Below are positions 22,236 through 42,666 of a stretch of DNA of 50,520 bases, in pieces; the stretch's first letter is position 1, and the number at the start of each line of letters is the position of its first letter. A model generated the notes under the pieces. That model was not told where the DNA came from. It ran no database searches and saw only the letters and a list, made by a program, of their open reading frames with translations. This DNA comes from Anaerolinea sp. (GTDB lineage: Bacteria > Chloroflexota > Anaerolineae > SpSt-313): positions 1 to 50,520 of the forward strand of contig DYEI01000541.1 of NCBI GenBank assembly GCA_020725765.1, read 5' to 3'. The position numbers were made by a program, and so were the translations under genes.

Positions 22236-23537
22236 ATGATGAACACTCCCCGCGAACCCGAAAGCTGGTCGATCTCATCGGGCAATGACCGCGCCCTGAC
22301 CCGACTGGTGCGACGCGCCCTGTCGCACCTCTACGACTATGCATACCTGCAGAGCCACCCCCTCGCCCTCTTGCTCGACGCCGACCACAGCCTCGACCAG
22401 GTCACACGCGCCCAGAAGCTCCGGCGCCTGCTCATCGAGTGCCTTGAGGCCCTGCGGCCCAACGGGGCGCGGGGACCGTCGCCTTCCGACGCCATGCGCG
22501 CTCACGCTATCCTGACCTACCGCTACCTGGACGGCCTCACCATCGGCCAGATTGCAGGCCGCCTGGCACTGAGTCGCCGGCAGATCTACCGGGAGCATGA
22601 GAAGGGAATCGAGGCGGTCGCCAGTGTCCTCGCAGACAGGCTGAGGGGTGAGATGCGAGGCAGCCCTCACAGCGTGCCTTCGGCCGACGATGCCTGTGCT
22701 GACCGCCTGGAGGCCGTGAGAGCTGAGGTAGCGCGCCTGCGGCAGGCAATCCGCACCGAGTCCGTCTCGCCGCTCGAAGTGCTGGAGGGAGTGATCGGCT
22801 TGCTCGCCCCCTTGCAGGAGCAGGCGCCTGTGCGCGTCCAGATTACACCCGATCCTCCCTGGCCCCAAATCATCGCCGATCGAGTCATGCTCCGCCAGGT
22901 GCTCCTGAACATTCTCAGTCACGCCCTGAGCGGAGGCGTCTCCGGCCACCTCCAGGTCGCCCTCTCGCAGAATCACGATGAGGTGACCATCAGCATCCGC
23001 GGTACCCGGGGCCAGTCGCCGGCCGACGCCCCGACTTTCCAGCCAGCAGCCCAGGACGTCGGCCTCGCCGTGTCGCAGGCCCTCACTGAGGCCCAGGGAG
23101 GGCGCCTGCAGGCGATAGAGAGCGCTGAGAGGTGGGAGGCAGTTCTCACCTTCCCCGCTCCCGGGCGCAAGACGATCCTTGTCATCGACGACAACGCCGA
23201 TATCGTGACGCTTCTCGAGCGCTATGTGGCAGGGCACGCGGTCTCTGTCGTGGGCGCAACGCAGCCCTCGAGCGCCCTCACCCTCGCCATCGAGCTGCAG
23301 CCACAGCTCATCACCCTCGACGTGATGATGCCCGGCATCGATGGCTGGGAGCTTCTCCAACAGCTCAAGGGGACTCCGGCCACACGGGACATCCCCGTGG
23401 TCATCTGCTCAGTCCTCAACGAGCCGCGCCTTGCCTTCGCGATGGGCGCCAGCGACTATATCACCAAACCGGTCCGCCAGGACGATCTGTTGGCCGTCTT
23501 GCGGCGCTGGCTGGGGCCGCTGCGGAGCGTCGCGTGA
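22236..23537 (+). CDS. HTH (sigma region 4-like) - degenerate HATPase - receiver regulator
   Basis: LDGLTIGQIAGRLALSRRQIYREHEKG (HTH); MLRQVLLNILSHALSGG (N-box-like); TILVIDDNADIV...LDVMMPGIDGWE...TKPVRQDDLL (REC). Confidence 0.75.
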   Translation: MMNTPREPESWSISSGNDRALTRLVRRALSHLYDYAYLQSHPLALLLDADHSLDQVTRAQKLRRLLIECLEALRPNGARGPSPSDAMRAHAILTYRYLDGLTIGQIAGRLALSRRQIYREHEKGIEAVASVLADRLRGEMRGSPHSVPSADDACADRLEAVRAEVARLRQAIRTESVSPLEVLEGVIGLLAPLQEQAPVRVQITPDPPWPQIIADRVMLRQVLLNILSHALSGGVSGHLQVALSQNHDEVTISIRGTRGQSPADAPTFQPAAQDVGLAVSQALTEAQGGRLQAIESAERWEAVLTFPAPGRKTILVIDDNADIVTLLERYVAGHAVSVVGATQPSSALTLAIELQPQLITLDVMMPGIDGWELLQQLKGTPATRDIPVVICSVLNEPRLAFAMGASDYITKPVRQDDLLAVLRRWLGPLRSVA

Positions 23538-25674
23538 TCACGGGAAGGGTGCTCTGCAGCACCTGCAGCACTTCGGTAAACGAGAACCCATCTCCCCGCT
23601 CGAGCCGCACAGGTCCGACCAGCGGCACCGACGATTCCTCTGTCGGCCGCACCGAGACGACGATAACGTGCGTATCGGCCAGCGAAGGGTCTCGCCGGAC
23701 CTCCTCCAGAAACTCGTACCCGCTTAGCTCGGGCATGTAGAGGTCCAGAAGCACCAGATCGGGTCGTTGCGCCCGGGCCGTCTCCAGCCCTGCGCGGCCC
23801 CCGAAGGCCTCCGACACCTGCGCAGCCGGGCAGCAACCAATCAGGAGCCGCGCCAGCAGCCGAACGACGTCAGGATCATCATCCACAATGAGGGCGCTCT
23901 GTGGAGGCCGCGGCAGCCGAGCCAACACCTCGGCGAGGTGCTCCCGTGTCACCGGCTTGGCGAGGTAGTCGTCCGCGCCCAGGAGCACGGCAAAGCGTCG
24001 CATGCTCGGCAGAGGACAACTCACGAGCGGTGTACCCTCAGGAAGGCCCATCTCGGCCACGGCGGGCATGCCGCCAGGCCAACTCGCATCCACCACCACC
24101 GCAACCGGAAAGACCTCCCCAACCCTCTCCCGGGCCTCCTCCGGCGTCGTCGCCAGCACAAACTCGCAGCCATCGACATACCGCCGCAACAGCGACAGCG
24201 TGCGTGCGTCGTCGTGTAGCAGAAGGACCGCGGGCAACTCGCTCCGCCTGTGCGGCAGAGCACTTCTGCTGCGACGGTGAGCGCTGACTGATCCCCCCTC
24301 TGCAAGCGGCAGGCTGAAGCCAACCGTCGTGCCGCGTCCGGGCTTGCTGTCGATCCACATGCGCCCGCCGTGAAGCTCGACGAACCGTTTGCTCACCGCC
24401 AGGCCCAGCCCAGACCCCTGCCGCACGTGGTCCTCGTCCAGCTGGCTGAAGGCCTCGAACGCCCGTGCCAGGCGATCTGGCGGTATCCCCTGCCCCGAGT
24501 CCTCCACAGTGACGAGCACCTCGCGCTGCTCTGCGTGGATTCTCAGCGCAATCCAGCCCCGCTCGGTGAAGCGTGTCGCGTTCGTCAAGAGGTTCAGCAG
24601 CACCTGGCGGATGCGCGTGCGGTCCAGCCGCACCGGCGGCAATCCTTCCGGGACGGACATCTCGAGCCGCAGCCCTCGCGCCTCGGCCAAGCCCCGCACC
24701 ATCTCGGCTGCCTCCCTTGCCACCTCGCCTATGTCGGTTTCCTCTTTCAGGAGGGGCATGGCACCCGCCTCGAGCCTCGACAGGTCGAGCACGTCATTGA
24801 TCAGGTCTGCGAGATGCCGGGCACTGCGGTAGATTGCCATGACGTCGCCCCGGTAGGGATTGGGGAGGATGGCGCCCCCATAGCTCTCCGGCGCGGTCGC
24901 GATCAGCTCGCTGAACCCCACGATCAGGTTGAGCGGCGTCCGCAGCTCGTGGGACACGTTGGCCACGAACTCGGCCTTGAACTGATACGCCCTTTCCGCC
25001 GCCTCCCGCGCATAGATCAGCGCTTCATTGGCGCGCTCAAGCCGGACGTAGGCCTCGTCAAGGCTCTTGAGAACACGCCGCACCTCGGCGCGGTGCTCAC
25101 GCGCAAGGGCGGCGCTCTTCTGGGCCTCGCGGGTCATGCTGAGGGCCCATGCGAGGGCCGTGAGCAGCCGTCGCGAGCTGAGCCACAGCGCCAGCGCCGC
25201 CAGAAAGATCGTCGTGACCGGAAGCGGCAGTTGCACCAGTGGAAGGCCATATACCCCGCGCCCAATGGCCACCACCAGCGCCGCCGCAACCGACGCCAGC
25301 CCCCAGACCGCACCAGGAGAGGCCAGTGTCGCCGCTACGGGCAAGATAACCACATAGAGGTACAGCGCCCCAACGCCCTGAAACGAAAGCGCGATCGTCG
25401 TTGTGGCCGCCATGGCACCCAGCAGATAGATGGCGATCGCCGGCCGCAGCCACCACCGGTGCAGCCGGTAGCCAAGCCACAGGACCGCCACCATCAGAGC
25501 CATTACCCCGTAGGCATGCAGCGCATAGTGCTCCGCGCAGTACAGGACTGCCACCGCCCACGCCCAGACCACCGCCGCCGTGACCGGCAGCAGCAGCCGG
25601 AACGAGTCCCGGGTCAGCTCTTCCAGCACCCCTGAGGTATCGTTATGCCCAATCGAAAGCGCATCGGACGCCAT
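23461..25674 (-). CDS. Membrane hybrid histidine kinase with two receiver domains
   Basis: N-terminal TM segments; EFVANVSHELRTPLNLIVGFSELI; GSGLGLAVSKRFVELHGG; two C-terminal REC-like domains. Confidence 0.87.
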   Translation of the reverse strand: MASDALSIGHNDTSGVLEELTRDSFRLLLPVTAAVVWAWAVAVLYCAEHYALHAYGVMALMVAVLWLGYRLHRWWLRPAIAIYLLGAMAATTTIALSFQGVGALYLYVVILPVAATLASPGAVWGLASVAAALVVAIGRGVYGLPLVQLPLPVTTIFLAALALWLSSRRLLTALAWALSMTREAQKSAALAREHRAEVRRVLKSLDEAYVRLERANEALIYAREAAERAYQFKAEFVANVSHELRTPLNLIVGFSELIATAPESYGGAILPNPYRGDVMAIYRSARHLADLINDVLDLSRLEAGAMPLLKEETDIGEVAREAAEMVRGLAEARGLRLEMSVPEGLPPVRLDRTRIRQVLLNLLTNATRFTERGWIALRIHAEQREVLVTVEDSGQGIPPDRLARAFEAFSQLDEDHVRQGSGLGLAVSKRFVELHGGRMWIDSKPGRGTTVGFSLPLAEGGSVSAHRRSRSALPHRRSELPAVLLLHDDARTLSLLRRYVDGCEFVLATTPEEARERVGEVFPVAVVVDASWPGGMPAVAEMGLPEGTPLVSCPLPSMRRFAVLLGADDYLAKPVTREHLAEVLARLPRPPQSALIVDDDPDVVRLLARLLIGCCPAAQVSEAFGGRAGLETARAQRPDLVLLDLYMPELSGYEFLEEVRRDPSLADTHVIVVSVRPTEESSVPLVGPVRLERGDGFSFTEVLQVLQSTLPVITRRSAAAPASAARRPTDRPGGPVW

Positions 25675-34515: not shown

Positions 34516-35625
34516 TCACTTCGCAGCTGACTGCGAGGCCGCCTCTAGCACAGCCCTCAGATGGCTGAGAGGGGTGCCAGGAGCGACATTGTTGCCATCC
34601 TGGAGGATGTAGCCACCACAAGGCGCAAAGACATCCATGTAGCGCCTGGTCTCGCGCTTGATGGCATCAGTGGGCCCCTCCAGTAAGAGAACAGGGTTCA
34701 GGCCGCCTGACATTACCGCCCGTCCCCCCAGGTACCGAACAAGCAGAGTAGGGTCAGTTGAGAATCCAAAGCCAACCAGATGGGTGACCGCCAGACGGTT
34801 GGCGATTAGCGGCAAGAGATGATCGATTCTGCCACACATGTGCAGGCCACGGACACCCGCAAACGCTTCGTAGCAGCGACTGTAGTAGGGCACAACGAAC
34901 TCCTCGAACAGCGCCGGTGACAGCATCTCGCCCGCATCACACCCCATGTAGAGACCGGCGATTCCATCGCCGCGCAGCGCACGCACGTGGCGCTGGAGGT
35001 TTATGAACGCCTTGGTGAGAGTATCCATCAATCTGTGCACGCGCTGAGGGTGCTCCAGCATCCACACAAAGAGTCTCTCCCCGGCCAGGGCGTAGGCATC
35101 CGGGATCGGGCCACCTGGCACCCCGATGGTCACGCGGATCTCGAGAGGCCGTCCATTCAACGTGACCTCGTACTCCGCCGCCAGGTCCTTCATTTCGCGA
35201 TACCAGCTGAGCATGCGGCCATAGTGGCCTGCCTCGACCTCCGGTACGGCGAGGGCGTCTATGTCCTCTGGCTCACAAAGGATCGGCTCGGCACAGGCGC
35301 TGCCGTCACTGTACCAACGCACGCCCACATCGTAGTAGCCGCCACGCAGAGTCGAGAGGTCGGGCGCAACAGTAATGGCGTCCGTCTCGACCACCCTCTC
35401 ATCCACTGGGTGCTCTAGGAGCCATTTGTGGTTGAGCAGCTGCTGCTCCAGTTGAGTGCGCGGGTTCCGATAGTAGTCGCCTATCGGCTGACCGCGGGCA
35501 TGGAACAGGAACCGAGACGTCAGCGAGAAGACTACCGGGGGCCGGTCGACTGCCGCCAGGCGCTGGCAGGCCTGCAGGCGCGCGCGGCGGGCCTCATTGC
35601 CGTCCAGCCACTCCGGCGGGCACAT
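34516..35625 (-). CDS. URO-D-family protein (MtaA/CmuA-like)
   Basis: LHMCGRIDHLLPLIANRLAVTHLVGFGF; CGGYILQDGNNVAPGTPLSHL; start placed at internal ATG 35625. Confidence 0.78.
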   Translation of the reverse strand: MCPPEWLDGNEARRARLQACQRLAAVDRPPVVFSLTSRFLFHARGQPIGDYYRNPRTQLEQQLLNHKWLLEHPVDERVVETDAITVAPDLSTLRGGYYDVGVRWYSDGSACAEPILCEPEDIDALAVPEVEAGHYGRMLSWYREMKDLAAEYEVTLNGRPLEIRVTIGVPGGPIPDAYALAGERLFVWMLEHPQRVHRLMDTLTKAFINLQRHVRALRGDGIAGLYMGCDAGEMLSPALFEEFVVPYYSRCYEAFAGVRGLHMCGRIDHLLPLIANRLAVTHLVGFGFSTDPTLLVRYLGGRAVMSGGLNPVLLLEGPTDAIKRETRRYMDVFAPCGGYILQDGNNVAPGTPLSHLRAVLEAASQSAAK

Positions 35626-35702
35626 GATCTCGATAGCTCGCGCGGGCACAATCAACTCCTCAATGAGATGGGCGCCAGAGGTAGGCGCATGCACGTGCGC
35701 AC

Positions 35703-36578
35703 CTACCCCTTGACGCCGGTGAAGACAATACCCTGAAGGAAGTATCGCTGAGCAGAGAAGAAAAGGACTATCAACGGCACCATGCACACGAACGAGGCCG
35801 CCATAAGCTGGGGCCAGTGCGCCCCGCCGAACTCGTTCCGGAAGTAGAGCAGCCCAACGGATGCCGTGAGCTTCATTCTCTCATGCAGATAGATCAGCGG
35901 ATCAAAAAAGTCGTTCCAGCGGCCCTGGAAGACGAGCACGGCTACCGTTGCCAGCGCAGGCCCAGACTGAGGCACTATAATGCGCCAATATACCTCGAAC
36001 GATGAGCAACCGTCGATGCGCGCCGCATCGTCCAACTCCGACGGAATAGTCATGTAGAACTGGCGCAACATGAATATGAAGAACGGCCCGCCAAAGAACA
36101 TGGGCACGATGAGCGGCCTGAACGTGTTCAGCCATCCCAGTTCCTTGAACAGGATGAACTGGGGTATCAGCGTAACCTGCGACGGTAGCATGAGCGTGGA
36201 CAGCATGACCAGGAACAGTATGTCCCGGCCCTTCCAACGGAGCCGTGCAAAGGAGAAGGCCACCAGCGAGCTGGAGAGCACACGACCCAGCGTGCCTGTG
36301 GCAGCAATGAGAAAAGAGTTCAAGAGATAGATGTGGAAGGGCTGAATCGTCAGGGCGTGATAATAGTTCTCCCAGCGCAGGGAGGAAGGCACCCACTTTG
36401 GCGGGAACAGATACACCTCCTGAGGAGCCTTGAGTGATGTGCTGATCATCCAGGCCGCAGGAACGAACAAGACCGCCACCATCGCGAGGAGGGCCATGTG
36501 GGTGAGAGCTCTGGCCAACCGCTTCTGAACGGTGTAGCCCACTCGCCATCTCGGGGTCAAGGCGCTGCCTCGACTCAT
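35703..36578 (-). CDS. Carbohydrate ABC transporter permease (MalG-like)
   Basis: SELDDAARIDGCSSFEVYWRIIVPQSGPALATVAVLVFQGRWNDFFDPLIY. Confidence 0.9.
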   Translation of the reverse strand: MSRGSALTPRWRVGYTVQKRLARALTHMALLAMVAVLFVPAAWMISTSLKAPQEVYLFPPKWVPSSLRWENYYHALTIQPFHIYLLNSFLIAATGTLGRVLSSSLVAFSFARLRWKGRDILFLVMLSTLMLPSQVTLIPQFILFKELGWLNTFRPLIVPMFFGGPFFIFMLRQFYMTIPSELDDAARIDGCSSFEVYWRIIVPQSGPALATVAVLVFQGRWNDFFDPLIYLHERMKLTASVGLLYFRNEFGGAHWPQLMAASFVCMVPLIVLFFSAQRYFLQGIVFTGVKG

Positions 36579-36584
36579 CTTCGC

Positions 36585-37523
36585 CTACCTCTTCAGTTCG
36601 CTCGTATAGTAGACCCATGCCGATGAACTACGGAACACGAGCAGGGTCAGGATCAGTACGTACAGGAACAGTACCCATGATAGTGCAGCCGCGTAGCCCA
36701 GCTTGAAGTATTCGAAAGCGTTCCGGTATAGATAGAGCACGAAGAAGAGGGTTGCATTCTCGGGACCCCCGTTGGTAATAATGCGCCCCTCAGTGAAGAC
36801 CTGGAGTGAACCAATCAGGCCCATGACCAGATTGTAGAACAGGATCGGTGTCATCAGTGGCCACGTGATATACCACCACCGCTGAATCGGCCCGGCTCCA
36901 TCAACCTCAGCCGCCTCGTAGTACTCGGTCGGTATACTCTGCATTCCTGCGAGGTAGATGATCATGCTGCCACCGAAGCCCCACAGACTCATCACGATGA
37001 GCGACGGCAGGGCATATCGGGTGTCGCCCAGCCAGTTACAGCCATTCAGACCCAGCTGGCGCAGGAAGGAGTTGATGAACCCATAGTCATGGTCGAACAC
37101 CAGGAGCCAGAGCATGGACACGGCGGCTGCCGGAAGGATCGACGGAAGATAGAACATGGTGCGGTAGACCCGCAGCCCCCGAAGCTTGGTGTTCAGCAGA
37201 GTGGCTACCACCATGCTCAAGAGAAGCACCAGCGGGACCCGCACAAAAGCATAGATGCTGGTCACCTTTAGTGACGAGACGAGCAGCGGATCGCGCAACA
37301 GGCGAGCATAGTTTGCGGAGCCTATCCATTTGGGTGGCGTGATCAGATCGTATTCGGCAAAGCCAAGGAACATGGCGGCTACCATCGGACCAGCAGTAAA
37401 GAAAGCAAAACCCAAGATCCACGGCGATGCAAAAAGCCATCCCTCGATGTTCTCACGCCCGGAGGTCCTCAACGCAGGTCTCCAGCGGGTAACCCGCCAG
37501 GCCAGCCTCCTCACTGTCGACAT
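36585..37523 (-). CDS. Carbohydrate ABC transporter permease (MalF/UgpA-like)
   Basis: YYEAAEVDGAGPIQRWWYITWPLMTPILFYNLVMGLIG. Confidence 0.9.
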   Translation of the reverse strand: MSTVRRLAWRVTRWRPALRTSGRENIEGWLFASPWILGFAFFTAGPMVAAMFLGFAEYDLITPPKWIGSANYARLLRDPLLVSSLKVTSIYAFVRVPLVLLLSMVVATLLNTKLRGLRVYRTMFYLPSILPAAAVSMLWLLVFDHDYGFINSFLRQLGLNGCNWLGDTRYALPSLIVMSLWGFGGSMIIYLAGMQSIPTEYYEAAEVDGAGPIQRWWYITWPLMTPILFYNLVMGLIGSLQVFTEGRIITNGGPENATLFFVLYLYRNAFEYFKLGYAAALSWVLFLYVLILTLLVFRSSSAWVYYTSELKR

Positions 37524-37694: not shown

Positions 37695-39074
37695 CTAGCT
37701 CGCCAGTATCTCGTTGGCCTTCTTGGTCATTGCCAGTGCCACTTCCCTGGCAGTGGCCTTGTCTGCCCACAGTCGGTCAAGTTCCGGATTGAACGCCTCC
37801 TGAAGGAGTTGGTTCCATTTGGGCGTCTTGGCCGGCTGGAATACCGCGTCAGCCATCTGATCCACGAAAATCCGGTTCTCCTCAGGGCTGTTGGTATCCG
37901 CGAGAAAGGTCTGAGTCATGGTGATCGACTTCCGCTGCGGAACCCCCTCGATTCCAAGCGTCAGTATCCCCTCCGTGCCCGCCAGCCAACTTGCCAGGAT
38001 CCAGGCCTCGTCCGGACTCTTGGTCTTGGCATAGACGCTGAAGGCCCACGAACTCGTGGTCGACCGGCGACCGCCGGGCCCCTTGGGCAGGGGAGCCAGT
38101 CTCCAGTTCCGCGGAAGGCCCTGGCGGACGTAGGAACTGGACACCCAGCGACGGTCGATCATGACCCCTACACGCCCCGCAGGGAACAGGTTCCAGGCGC
38201 GCTGAGTGACCATCGTCTTCGCAGGGGCCACCTTGTGCTTGTAGATAGCATCGTGCATCCATTGCAGGGCCGCGATGGCCTCTTCCGAGTCCAGCAGGCA
38301 GCGGGTGGCATCCTCGTTGAGCAGCCTTGCACCCCCGCTGTAAATGTAGATGAACCACTCCTCATGCGGGGCTACCCACCCCCAACGAGTCACGAGGTCA
38401 CCTTCGCGCTTGGTGAGCTTGCCAGCAGCAGCGATGAGGGCGTCCCAGTTCCAGTCGTCGGCCTGTGCCACGTCGGTGGGAAGAGGGTCCAGCCCTACCT
38501 CCTCAAAGGCTTCGGTGTTATAGTACGTCACCAGCGGGCCGCCATAGGCCGGCAACCCGTACAACTCGCCCTGGTAGGTGAAAAACTCGCGCGGGACGTC
38601 GAAAAAGTCCGCCTTGTCAAAGCCGGGGGTAGAGGCGATGAAAGGTTCAAGACTGAGAGCCACGCCTTTGCCCTCGTAGTTGATCCACATGCCTGCTTCC
38701 ATCTGGAAGACGTCGGCCGCCGTTCCAGCCGCCAGCCGCGTCTGCATGGTGGCTCCGTACTCCGCCGATGGTACGTGTTCGAGGTCGGCGTTCACCCCAG
38801 GATGCCCGGCATTGAATATCTCGAGCGCTCTGAGGTAGTTCTTGGCCTGATCCTGGGTGCCTGAAATCGTCAGGGTCACATTGACCGCAGGGCGTGCAGG
38901 CGGAGGTGTCGCCGTAACGACCTTCTCGACCACCTGGGCCGTGCCTTCAAGGACCACCGTCTCTCGGACGACCCTCTCCACCACCCGGGGCGCGCAAGCC
39001 GCGACGAGAGCGCCAAATGAGGGCAACAGGCCGATAGCGATGAAACGCCGCCGCGTGAGCCTCTTGTTGTCCAT
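37695..39074 (-). CDS. Sugar ABC transporter substrate-binding protein
   Basis: LTRRRFIAIG twin-Arg-like start and ACAPRVVERVVRETVV linker; FNAGHPGVNADLEHVPSAEYGATMQTRLAAGTAADVFQME. Confidence 0.88.
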   Translation of the reverse strand: MDNKRLTRRRFIAIGLLPSFGALVAACAPRVVERVVRETVVLEGTAQVVEKVVTATPPPARPAVNVTLTISGTQDQAKNYLRALEIFNAGHPGVNADLEHVPSAEYGATMQTRLAAGTAADVFQMEAGMWINYEGKGVALSLEPFIASTPGFDKADFFDVPREFFTYQGELYGLPAYGGPLVTYYNTEAFEEVGLDPLPTDVAQADDWNWDALIAAAGKLTKREGDLVTRWGWVAPHEEWFIYIYSGGARLLNEDATRCLLDSEEAIAALQWMHDAIYKHKVAPAKTMVTQRAWNLFPAGRVGVMIDRRWVSSSYVRQGLPRNWRLAPLPKGPGGRRSTTSSWAFSVYAKTKSPDEAWILASWLAGTEGILTLGIEGVPQRKSITMTQTFLADTNSPEENRIFVDQMADAVFQPAKTPKWNQLLQEAFNPELDRLWADKATAREVALAMTKKANEILAS

Positions 39075-39190
39075 TGTCTCACTCCTCCTAGTGGTCGCAG
39101 CAGGGAGGTTCCCTGCAGCTGCTGGAGTCGCGCCCGGCTGAGTGCTCGTCAGCACTCTCATCCAAGCTTGACCACTGACCAGCTTAATGT

Positions 39191-39241
39191 TACGATAGGG
39201 CACAGTTGCACGTGCGAGCCGTCCCATCTGGCCCTATCGTA
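39191..39241. promoter_or_regulatory. Inverted repeat, candidate operator between divergent SBP and regulator genes
   Basis: TACGATAGGGC (39191-39201) / GCCCTATCGTA (39231-39241); internal palindrome GCACGTGC. Confidence 0.45.
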
Positions 39242-39281: not shown

Positions 39282-40550
39282 ATGTCTGCCACAGAAAGAG
39301 CCGCTGAGTCGTTCGATGAGTTGCGGCATCAGCTGCGCGAGGCACTTGCACACCTCCATGACCCCGACTACCAGCCCCCCGAGCTGCTCCGCCAGGTGGT
39401 CGGTCATCCTCAAGCCCAAGACAAGGCAGCCTTCCAGGCGGCCATCCTGCAGAAGATAGCGGACCTCGCACCACACGCTGACGCACCCGCCACGAGCCGA
39501 GCTCAGCGTGACTATGAGGTACTGCGACATCGCTTTGTTCTCGGCCTGACTCAGGAAGAGGCGGCAGAACACCTCCACATGAGCGTCCGCACCCTCGGGC
39601 GGGCGCAACGCCAGGCCACCCATGCCCTTGCCAGGATGCTTTGGGAGCAACGCCAGAGGGCAGACGCAGGCACGGCATTCTCCGAGCACGAGGGAAGCTC
39701 CAGTCAGAGCTCCGACGACTGGCGGTCACAGGTGAGAGAGAATCTCGCGGCGCTGCGTGCCAGTGCACCCGAGTTGGTCAGTAACGTCTACGATGTGATC
39801 GCGTCTGCTTTGGAACGGGTGAGCACGGTCGTCTTACAGTCGGAAAGGCCGCGCGCCGCAGGAGTACCGCGCGATCTCGTGGCGAAGGTGCATCCATCTG
39901 TGTTGCGACAGGTGCTGATTATGGCAATGACCCAACTCCTCGCCACAGGTCTCGGCGGGGTGGAGCTGAGCGCCCACGCGGAGGAAGACCGAGTAGTCAT
40001 CCGCATCACAGGGCCAGCCTCAGATTTGCCCGAGGACCCGGAGGTTGCTCTGCTGCGCGAGATTCTGGCCTGCGATGGGGGTGACCTGGAAATCAGGGCT
40101 GAAGGTGGTCGCCTCGAGGCGCGCATCGCTATCCCGGCTGCAGGCAAGGTAACAGTGCTGGTGGTTGACGACAATATCGATGCATTGCACTACTACCGCC
40201 GCTGCGTGGAGCAGACCCGCTTCCATCTCATCCACGCCCGAAGTGGAGACGCCGCACTCGAACAGATGCGCTCGCGCACACCGGATGTCATCGTTCTCGA
40301 CATCGTCCTTCCCGACATGGATGGCTGGGACTTTATGCAGAAGCTTCGGCGGAATCCCGTGACGCGCTCCATCCCCGTGATCATCTGCTCAATCGTCAAA
40401 GAAGAGCGCCTGGCCTCAGCCCTCGGCGCCATCCAGTGTCTACCCAAGCCGGTACGAGATGCGGAATTCCTCCACGCGCTTGAACAGGCTATCGCCCAGG
40501 CCCCAACAGCATCGCCGAGAACTGGAGCGCACAGCACAGCAGCCTTCTGA
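39282..40550 (+). CDS. HTH (sigma region 4-like) - degenerate HATPase - receiver regulator
   Basis: RHRFVLGLTQEEAAEHLHMSVRTLGRAQRQATHALARML (HTH); VTVLVVDDNIDAL...LDIVLPDMDGWDFMQKL...CLPKPVRDAEFL (REC). Confidence 0.78.
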   Translation: MSATERAAESFDELRHQLREALAHLHDPDYQPPELLRQVVGHPQAQDKAAFQAAILQKIADLAPHADAPATSRAQRDYEVLRHRFVLGLTQEEAAEHLHMSVRTLGRAQRQATHALARMLWEQRQRADAGTAFSEHEGSSSQSSDDWRSQVRENLAALRASAPELVSNVYDVIASALERVSTVVLQSERPRAAGVPRDLVAKVHPSVLRQVLIMAMTQLLATGLGGVELSAHAEEDRVVIRITGPASDLPEDPEVALLREILACDGGDLEIRAEGGRLEARIAIPAAGKVTVLVVDDNIDALHYYRRCVEQTRFHLIHARSGDAALEQMRSRTPDVIVLDIVLPDMDGWDFMQKLRRNPVTRSIPVIICSIVKEERLASALGAIQCLPKPVRDAEFLHALEQAIAQAPTASPRTGAHSTAAF

Positions 40551-42666
40551 CTGGCATTCCGTCGCTGGTACTCAGGATGAGAAAGGGACTTGCCAGTGCC
40601 TGCTGTCCTGGATCCTGAGCCGACAGAATGTAGATGGCAAGCTCCTCCGCTGTCCTCTCGCGACGTAACTGCTCCAGCACTTGCCATCCACTCATGTCAG
40701 GCATGGTTATGTCGAGAAAGACCAGATCGGGAAGCAGCCTCGCTGCCTTCTCGAGCGCTTGAGCACCACTGGTCGCCGTAAACACCTCCACCTCAGGGAG
40801 CGCCATCTTGAGCATTCGTCGCAGCAACGTCAGAAACTCGATCTCGTCGTCGACCAGCAGTATGCGCCGGACGCAGCGGCCGGTTGATTGCACAGCCTGA
40901 AGCAGGTCAGCCTCGCCAACCGGCTTGACCAGATGCCCCTGCGCGCCAAGTCCCACAGCGCGGGCCTCGGAGGGGGACACGACGCAGCCACATAGCGCCA
41001 CGTCGGAGATCTGGCCGCGCACCGCCTCCAACTCGCCCCACGCACGATCTACACTTGACGCGTTGAGCAGCAGAGCATGCGCAGGAGTGTCGGCAAGAAG
41101 AAGAGCAGCCTCTTCCAGAGAGGCGACGCTCACCAGTTCGGCAAGGTCTGCGTGGCGCTCCAGTTGACTACCCAGCCCTCCTGTCTCGTCGCAGACTACG
41201 ACACGAGGTTTGGTGAGATGGGGCGTCGCAGCCGCTCTTGCCCCGATAAAGTCGCGCTCTCGCCACTCCCAGTCCTCGCGATTCCAGCGCCACGGCATAC
41301 TCCCGCCCTGGTTTGACGGGCTGAGTGGGAGCTCCACATAGCAGGTCGTCCCCACCCCGACCTGGCTTTCCAGCCAGATCCGCCCGCCATGCAGCTCTAC
41401 GAACTGCTTGGAGATGCTCAGACCAAGGCCAGTGCCACCCGCGCTCTGTGACCCAGAGCCGGTCTGCCAGAATGGCTCGAAAGCAGCAGACAGGTCCTCA
41501 GCGGCGATACCAGGCCCCGTGTCAGTGATGCGCAGGAGCATACTGTCACCGCGCACCTCGGCACCCACTGTGATGCCACCTCGCTCCGTGAAGCGGGCGG
41601 CATTGCTGAGCACATTCAGAACGACCTGGCGGATACGGGTCGGATCGCATACGATCGGCGGCAGGTCAGCGGGCACGTCGACCGTCAAGCCGAGCCCCTT
41701 CCTCTCCAGCAACGGCCCGACGATCTCCAGCGCGCTGTGAACGATGTCCGTCACTCGGACGGACTCACGGCGCAGCGCGATCTGCCCAGCGTCCAATCGT
41801 GTCAGATCCAGCACGTCGTTGACCATGCTGGCGAGATGCTCACAGTTCCGCTGCACGACCTGCAAGTCCTGCCACAAGTCAGGGGGGAACTCCCGGCCAT
41901 ACATGTAGGGACGACGCACCATGAGCCCCACCAGGCCAATGATCATGTTGAGAGGCGTGCGGAACTCGTGGCTGACGCGCGATACGAAGGCAACCTTGGC
42001 CTGCTGCGCCTGCTCGGCAATCAGGCGCAACGCTGCCGTGCGCTCGTTGGCCAGCGCCAACTGACGGTTGGCGTGAGCCAGATCGTCCAGCGCCTGTTGG
42101 AGCTCGGCCTTGCGGTCGCGCGCCTGCTCCAGCAACTCCTGCGCCCGACGAGTATGAGCCCACGCCCAGGCTGCCGTTCGCTGAAGCGAGCGGTGGACCC
42201 CCCACAACACGGCAAAGGAACCCCAGATGGCGACGACCACTACGAGCGGGTGAGTTCTGACCTGCCCGGGTGAGCTGGCAGTATAGAGCCAGAGAAGCAA
42301 TGTCTCGGCGATGCTTACCAGGGCCGCCTCTTCGAGGCTCAGCACAGCGGCAGCTACCAGAGGAGGCAGGGCAAGAAGTGCCAACAGCCCCTCGACAGCC
42401 AGCAGACGGTCCCCAAGGAACATGACGATCTGCAGCGACACAATGGACAGCCACGGACCAACTCGGGGCGCGCTCCTGGCCATCCAGCACACCGCAGCTG
42501 CGCAATAACACAAGGCGGCCAGCAACGCAACCGACAGGCGCTGCGACATATCCGGAATGGCATCGGTCGCGAACACCAGCGCTACACCGCAGGAGGCCAG
42601 AGCGATCACCACCAGAGCCTGCGGCACCTGCGCCTCCACTGCAGACAGATTACTCGAGCGGGCCAT
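40489..42666 (-). CDS. Membrane hybrid histidine kinase with two receiver-like domains
   Basis: AFVSRVSHEFRTPLNMIIGLVGLM; GGTGLGLSISKQFVELHGG; REC-like domains; start placed at ATG 42666. Confidence 0.86.
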   Translation of the reverse strand: MARSSNLSAVEAQVPQALVVIALASCGVALVFATDAIPDMSQRLSVALLAALCYCAAAVCWMARSAPRVGPWLSIVSLQIVMFLGDRLLAVEGLLALLALPPLVAAAVLSLEEAALVSIAETLLLWLYTASSPGQVRTHPLVVVVAIWGSFAVLWGVHRSLQRTAAWAWAHTRRAQELLEQARDRKAELQQALDDLAHANRQLALANERTAALRLIAEQAQQAKVAFVSRVSHEFRTPLNMIIGLVGLMVRRPYMYGREFPPDLWQDLQVVQRNCEHLASMVNDVLDLTRLDAGQIALRRESVRVTDIVHSALEIVGPLLERKGLGLTVDVPADLPPIVCDPTRIRQVVLNVLSNAARFTERGGITVGAEVRGDSMLLRITDTGPGIAAEDLSAAFEPFWQTGSGSQSAGGTGLGLSISKQFVELHGGRIWLESQVGVGTTCYVELPLSPSNQGGSMPWRWNREDWEWRERDFIGARAAATPHLTKPRVVVCDETGGLGSQLERHADLAELVSVASLEEAALLLADTPAHALLLNASSVDRAWGELEAVRGQISDVALCGCVVSPSEARAVGLGAQGHLVKPVGEADLLQAVQSTGRCVRRILLVDDEIEFLTLLRRMLKMALPEVEVFTATSGAQALEKAARLLPDLVFLDITMPDMSGWQVLEQLRRERTAEELAIYILSAQDPGQQALASPFLILSTSDGMPVRRLLCCALQFSAMLLGPGR

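Follow-up and report, generated by a model that had tools for sequence, protein, structure and literature searches.

Two-component systems of the YesM/YesN type are found with sugar ABC operons, and the HTCS of Bacteroides with polysaccharide loci. In PhyR-type regulators a sigma-like domain is followed by a C-terminal REC domain (PMC3892343). The genes of neighbouring two-component partners are normally co-directional, with a cis to trans ratio of more than 15:1 at distances of less than 200 bp (PMC3018481), and for convergent genes that overlap by more than 4 nt the phase 123:132 is the commonest one (49%; PMC2174442). The cassette analysed here consists of a response regulator and a hybrid histidine kinase of which the genes lie tail to tail and overlap at their 3' ends. 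Two such modules are present in a 50,520-nucleotide stretch of DNA from Anaerolinea sp. (assembly GCA_020725765.1, contig DYEI01000541.1; the window hereafter), and their features are collected in Table 1. A paper on convergent overlapping two-component pairs or on this regulator family was not found among the open-access papers searched.

Table 1. Positions of the two regulator/kinase modules and of adjoining features in the window
Feature	Position	Strand	Remarks
Copy-1 regulator	22236-23537	+	architecture as copy 2, other clade
Copy-1 hybrid histidine kinase	23461-25674	-	
Copy-1 3' overlap	23461-23537		77 nt
URO-D superfamily protein, copy-2 locus	34516-35787	-	
ABC permease 2 (BPD_transp_1), copy-2 locus	35703-36578	-	
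ABC permease 1 (BPD_transp_1), copy-2 locus	36585-37523	-	
SBP_bac_1, copy-2 locus	37695-39074	-	sugar-type solute-binding protein, divergent from copy-2 regulator
Perfect 11-bp inverted repeat	39191-39241		TACGATAGGGC-29-GCCCTATCGTA; SBP/regulator intergenic region
Copy-2 regulator (REG)	39282-40550	+	HTH, degenerate HATPase-like domain and REC
Copy-2 hybrid histidine kinase	40489-42666	-	DHp, ATPase domain, REC1, REC2
Copy-2 antiparallel 3' overlap	40489-40550		62 nt; phase 123:132

The open reading frames, their strands and both overlaps were as described in the earlier note, and both regulators do have the HTH, the HATPase-like region and the REC domain that it had ascribed to them. The HATPase region is degenerate in both regulators, with a Pfam match in copy 1 only. 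Protein alignment gave 28% identity between the regulators of copies 1 and 2 and 37% identity over 551 aa between the kinases; judged from these sequences, the modules are homologous but distant. In the trees the two copies belong to different old clades, each with members from other genomes, and therefore they do not derive from a recent duplication. To call one of them a second copy was mistaken, as the window's own assembly contains 26 full-length regulators of this type, both window copies counted. The gene order SBP-permease-permease-URO-D, which had been given for both loci, is correct for copy 2; in copy 1 the operon starts with URO-D, which separates the regulator from the SBP gene.

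The copy-2 regulator is composed of N-terminal helices, a sigma4-type HTH (residues 73-133 approximately), a HATPase-like region (142-286 approximately) and a REC domain (292-406) in which the phospho-acceptor Asp340 and Lys389 are intact. Its structure model is confident (mean pLDDT 90), its REC fold matches REC structures, and D297, D340 and K389 are invariant in 70 regulators. A Sigma70 region-4 type HTH was found by sequence in 23 of 39 regulators and also in the structure model. The regulator may be considered a putative DNA-binding response regulator that would act via this sigma4-like HTH. In the HATPase region the N-box, DxGxG and GxG motifs that mark an active HATPase are not conserved, and 15 of the 39 regulators reached the Pfam HATPase_c profile, even weakly. 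The combination of a sigma4-like HTH, a degenerate HATPase domain and a REC domain is unusual. When the regulator fold was searched against the PDB, the 50 matches listed were mostly to REC domains or to kinase ATPase domains on their own, and none of them covered the whole architecture.

For the copy-2 kinase six membrane helices are predicted at the N-terminus; its core of a DHp domain (His233) and an ATPase domain is intact, with profile matches to PF00512 and PF02518. H233, N351, N355, D382-x-G384-x-G386 and G411-G415 are invariant in 47 kinases. With a phosphorylatable His in HisKA, an N/G-box ATPase domain and a C-terminal receiver that carries an Asp, it is a hybrid histidine kinase. 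The NCBIfam models for TorS, BarA and ArcB match it, all below their cut-offs, and an Hpt domain was not found in the kinase. In REC2 the residues D607 and D652 are invariant and the switch Lys is missing; REC1 has kept K581-P582 and has a consensus Asn at the Asp site, so that it is without a phospho-acceptor. The losses of REC1 and REC2 (Asp versus Lys) look complementary throughout the family, for instance at 40489-41220 of the window. In the mechanism that we propose, the kinase would sense a sugar or the state of the transporter through its six-helix membrane domain and would phosphorylate the REC domain of the regulator (at Asp340 in copy 2), and the phosphorylated regulator would switch the promoter of the divergent ABC operon and probably its own promoter as well.

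The left arm of the inverted repeat in the SBP/regulator intergenic region (Table 1) contains TACGAT, the -10-like hexamer in a promoter-like sequence of the regulator (39168-39196, +), and the repeat is a candidate autoregulatory operator. An operator shared across the modules was not revealed when the upstream regions of 69 regulators were searched for enriched k-mers and dyads. Most of the enrichment came from a signal resembling TATAAT and from words that seem to be codons of the conserved HLYD(Y) residues, and inverted repeats occurred mostly at chance level.

The arrangement of the pair was followed in a series of genomes that are largely draft, with open reading frames called mechanically. 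In the window's own genome all 26 regulators have a convergent hybrid kinase at their 3' end, which overlaps the regulator in 21 cases. Among convergent pairs of relatives, overlap was present in 17 of 19 from the same genus, 6 of 10 from G025, 6 of 6 from G027 and 3 of 3 from G028. A class-wide survey added 40 loci from as many genomes and yielded 34 convergent pairs (29 overlapping) and 2 co-directional ones, the remaining 4 being lost where the contig ends near the regulator. In a third set, which takes in nine convergent pairs of G368, a genome of another class, all 17 convergent pairs overlapped (17/17) and 1 pair was co-directional. Summed over all sets, mostly from one class, there are 122 paired loci with 118 convergent pairs and 101 overlaps, of which 89 are in phase 123:132. 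The modal overlap is exactly 68 nt (27/101) and was found across many families, also in another class; overlap lengths range from 4 to 179 nt and the stop positions drift. The earlier note had considered that the overlap might be absent in close relatives. This is contradicted by the survey, which, as far as these sequences reach, shows the overlap to be an old feature with a wide distribution. The family itself is patchy, with matches at E<=1e-40 in 68 of 298 genomes of the class, and in a sample of the phylum G368 was the sole match outside the class. A peptide-pattern search of GTDB contigs returned generic REC relatives only.

At four loci, L206 (G163), L189 (G245), L108 (G001) and L165 (G285), kinase and regulator are co-directional (head to tail). 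They are scattered over separate clades and two of them have an ordinary 4-nt operon overlap; they look like flips within an otherwise convergent family. Besides, the regulators L113 and L117 (G025), L205 (G368) and L215 (G169) are without an adjacent hybrid kinase on contigs that continue for kilobases, and are possible orphan regulators.

Divergent ABC genes were present within four genes of the regulator in 47 of 52 informative loci. In the window's own genome, which has 53 SBP_bac_1 matches in all, a divergent ABC operon lies beside 20 of the 21 regulators that have enough upstream sequence. At L026 (G000, contig C371) two adjoining modules have a single ABC operon between them. The inheritance of the signalling pair was studied in trees made by 'quick' searches with SH-aLRT support. 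For 63 pairs, 37 of 60 splits were common to the regulator and kinase trees, against at most 3 after 200 label shuffles, and of the 30 regulator splits with strong support 28 were present in the kinase tree, with no supported conflict. The congruence of the two trees implies that the pair duplicates as a unit, as the earlier note had supposed; its alternative, that the two pairs were assembled independently, does not agree with these phylogenies.

The co-inheritance of the pair with the sugar ABC locus that was implied in the same note is rejected. The nearly constant synteny would fit a mobile unit in which two-component system and sugar ABC operon are copied as one. However, within this genome the SBP and permease trees matched the regulator or kinase trees in 0 of 16-17 splits, whereas the regulator and kinase trees have 12 splits in common. 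Several branches of the SBP and permease trees are weak, with 7-8 strong splits in each. In AU tests of the copy-1 clade permease 2 gave a rejection (p=0.0009) and permease 1 a marginal result (p=0.052); the grouping of L010 with L122 was rejected for both permease 2 (p=4e-11) and permease 1 (p=8e-43). A mobile whole locus is hardly credible on these grounds. The trees indicate that the conserved unit is the regulator/kinase pair and that the adjoining transporter is exchanged repeatedly.

The overlap was further compared with that of other convergent genes, from gene calls that cover approximately 0.43 Mb of this genome's contigs. An overlap of 40-100 nt was present in 18 of 25 modules and in 2 of the 27 convergent pairs that other genes form on these contigs (Fisher p=2e-6). 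It could be argued that convergent genes of a GC-rich genome tend to overlap everywhere and that the modules show nothing beyond this. Phase 123:132, commonest in general as mentioned above, is also the commonest in the background pairs here (6/9), and the phase by itself is not special. But the difference in frequency at 40-100 nt, and the recurrence of exactly 68 nt in numerous families, one class apart included, make such a general tendency very unlikely as the sole cause.

The constancy of the overlap was related to the codons at which the kinase stops. In phase 123:132 a regulator codon pair xTC-Axx reads as a TGA stop in the reverse complement. For 58 of the 89 overlaps in this phase, the kinase ends exactly opposite the two regulator codons that follow KP in the receiver motif KP(V/I)(S/T), where the antisense strand reads a stop; the commonest codon pair at this position is GTC-AGC, with TGA on the other strand. 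An antisense stop in the same codon pair was also encountered in 45 of 125 KP motifs scanned in kinases, mainly those of REC1, which lies outside the overlap, and in 16 of 31 KP motifs of regulators that do not have this overlap. As the antisense stop is this frequent outside the overlap, the trap is partly built in. A kinase frame that runs into the regulator 3' end in phase 123:132 would be halted at the antisense stop in the KP(V/I)(S/T) codons, selection on the receiver motif would retain the kinase stop, and a single helix of constant length from the motif to the regulator stop would give the modal 68 nt. The modal overlap encodes the last helix of the regulator and a Pro/Ala-rich tail of the kinase. 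The stop trap leaves 31 of the 89 phase-matched overlaps unexplained, both window copies among them. The copy-1 kinase ends some 4 residues before the regulator KPV motif, upstream of it, and the overlap encodes alpha5 of the regulator and a Pro/Ala/Arg-rich tail of the kinase; in copy 2 the kinase stop is about 10 residues downstream of the motif, and the overlap encodes the last helix of the kinase (alpha5 of REC2) and the end of the regulator with its disordered tail.

The earlier note had also suggested antisense coupling of the two mRNAs. A functional overlap, in which antisense pairing or polymerase collision balances the levels of kinase and regulator and is kept by selection, would be in line with the almost universal convergence (118/122) of genes that as two-component neighbours are normally co-directional, and with a region that is constrained in both frames. 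Between orthologues, third positions of the regulator had 0.128 substitutions inside the overlap versus 0.227 elsewhere (p=5e-4); the kinase tail was looser than the kinase body. This double constraint, however, is accounted for by the presence of two coding frames. In addition, no intrinsic terminator was found near the copy-2 overlap, the RNA folding energy in the overlap windows of 55 modules was ordinary (mean z about -0.2 and -0.1), and conserved RNA structure gave no signal in the overlap. A gap replaces the overlap in 17 of 118 convergent loci, and the drifting stops and the four head-to-tail members argue against coupling as well. A functional role of this kind is therefore unlikely, and nothing in the present evidence requires antisense coupling, for which these sequences offer no support. 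The overlap seems to be mostly passive and self-locking, its geometry coming largely from shared descent and the stop-codon trap. That KP-V/I-S/T has served as a ready-made antisense stop, locking the overlap at about 68 nt through dozens of duplications and in two classes, with a portable cassette being re-paired with other sugar transporters, is a proposal that could go either way. For the locus as a whole, the probable explanation is a lineage-expanded two-component cassette with descent as a unit, an exchanged transporter, the putative signalling route outlined above and a passive stop-trap overlap.

The presence of 26 cassettes in a 4.6-Mb genome breaks with the usual operon rule at scale. 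A pair that is inherited together and yet re-paired with different transporters offers a natural series for the rewiring of sensor specificity. If a constrained motif conceals the stop codon, this would provide a molecular reason for an antiparallel overlap that is long fixed without antisense regulation, and in our view it is a warning that a conserved overlap need not mean regulatory coupling.

Pairs of the TorS, BarA and ArcB type resemble the cassette in their DHp and ATPase domains, C-terminal REC and paired regulator, for which DNA binding is predicted in the cassette. The cassette differs from them in that its genes are tail to tail and overlapping instead of in an operon, that REC1 is without the Asp and REC2 without the Lys, that no Hpt was found and that its six-helix membrane sensor is unrecognised. 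With PhyR-type regulators the cassette regulator has an N-terminal sigma-like HTH and a C-terminal REC in common, whereas of a full sigma2-sigma4-like domain only the region-4-like HTH was detected in it, and a degenerate HATPase domain is inserted. The PhyR_sigma-like model matched 1 of 39 regulators, weakly (E=0.0037), and a link to the general stress response was not seen for the cassette. Like YesM/YesN and the HTCS, the cassette comprises a large set of paralogues that act as local regulators, with a locus for carbohydrate uptake next to each. In contrast to these, it has another domain architecture in which no AraC-type HTH was found, its genes are convergent and overlapping, and its transporter is exchanged relative to the two-component system. 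Finally, prokaryotic convergent overlapping genes (PMC2174442) share phase 123:132 and common 3' ends with the cassette, whereas the cassette keeps nearly the same overlap site in many paralogues and families, and its stop falls within the codons of a receiver motif.
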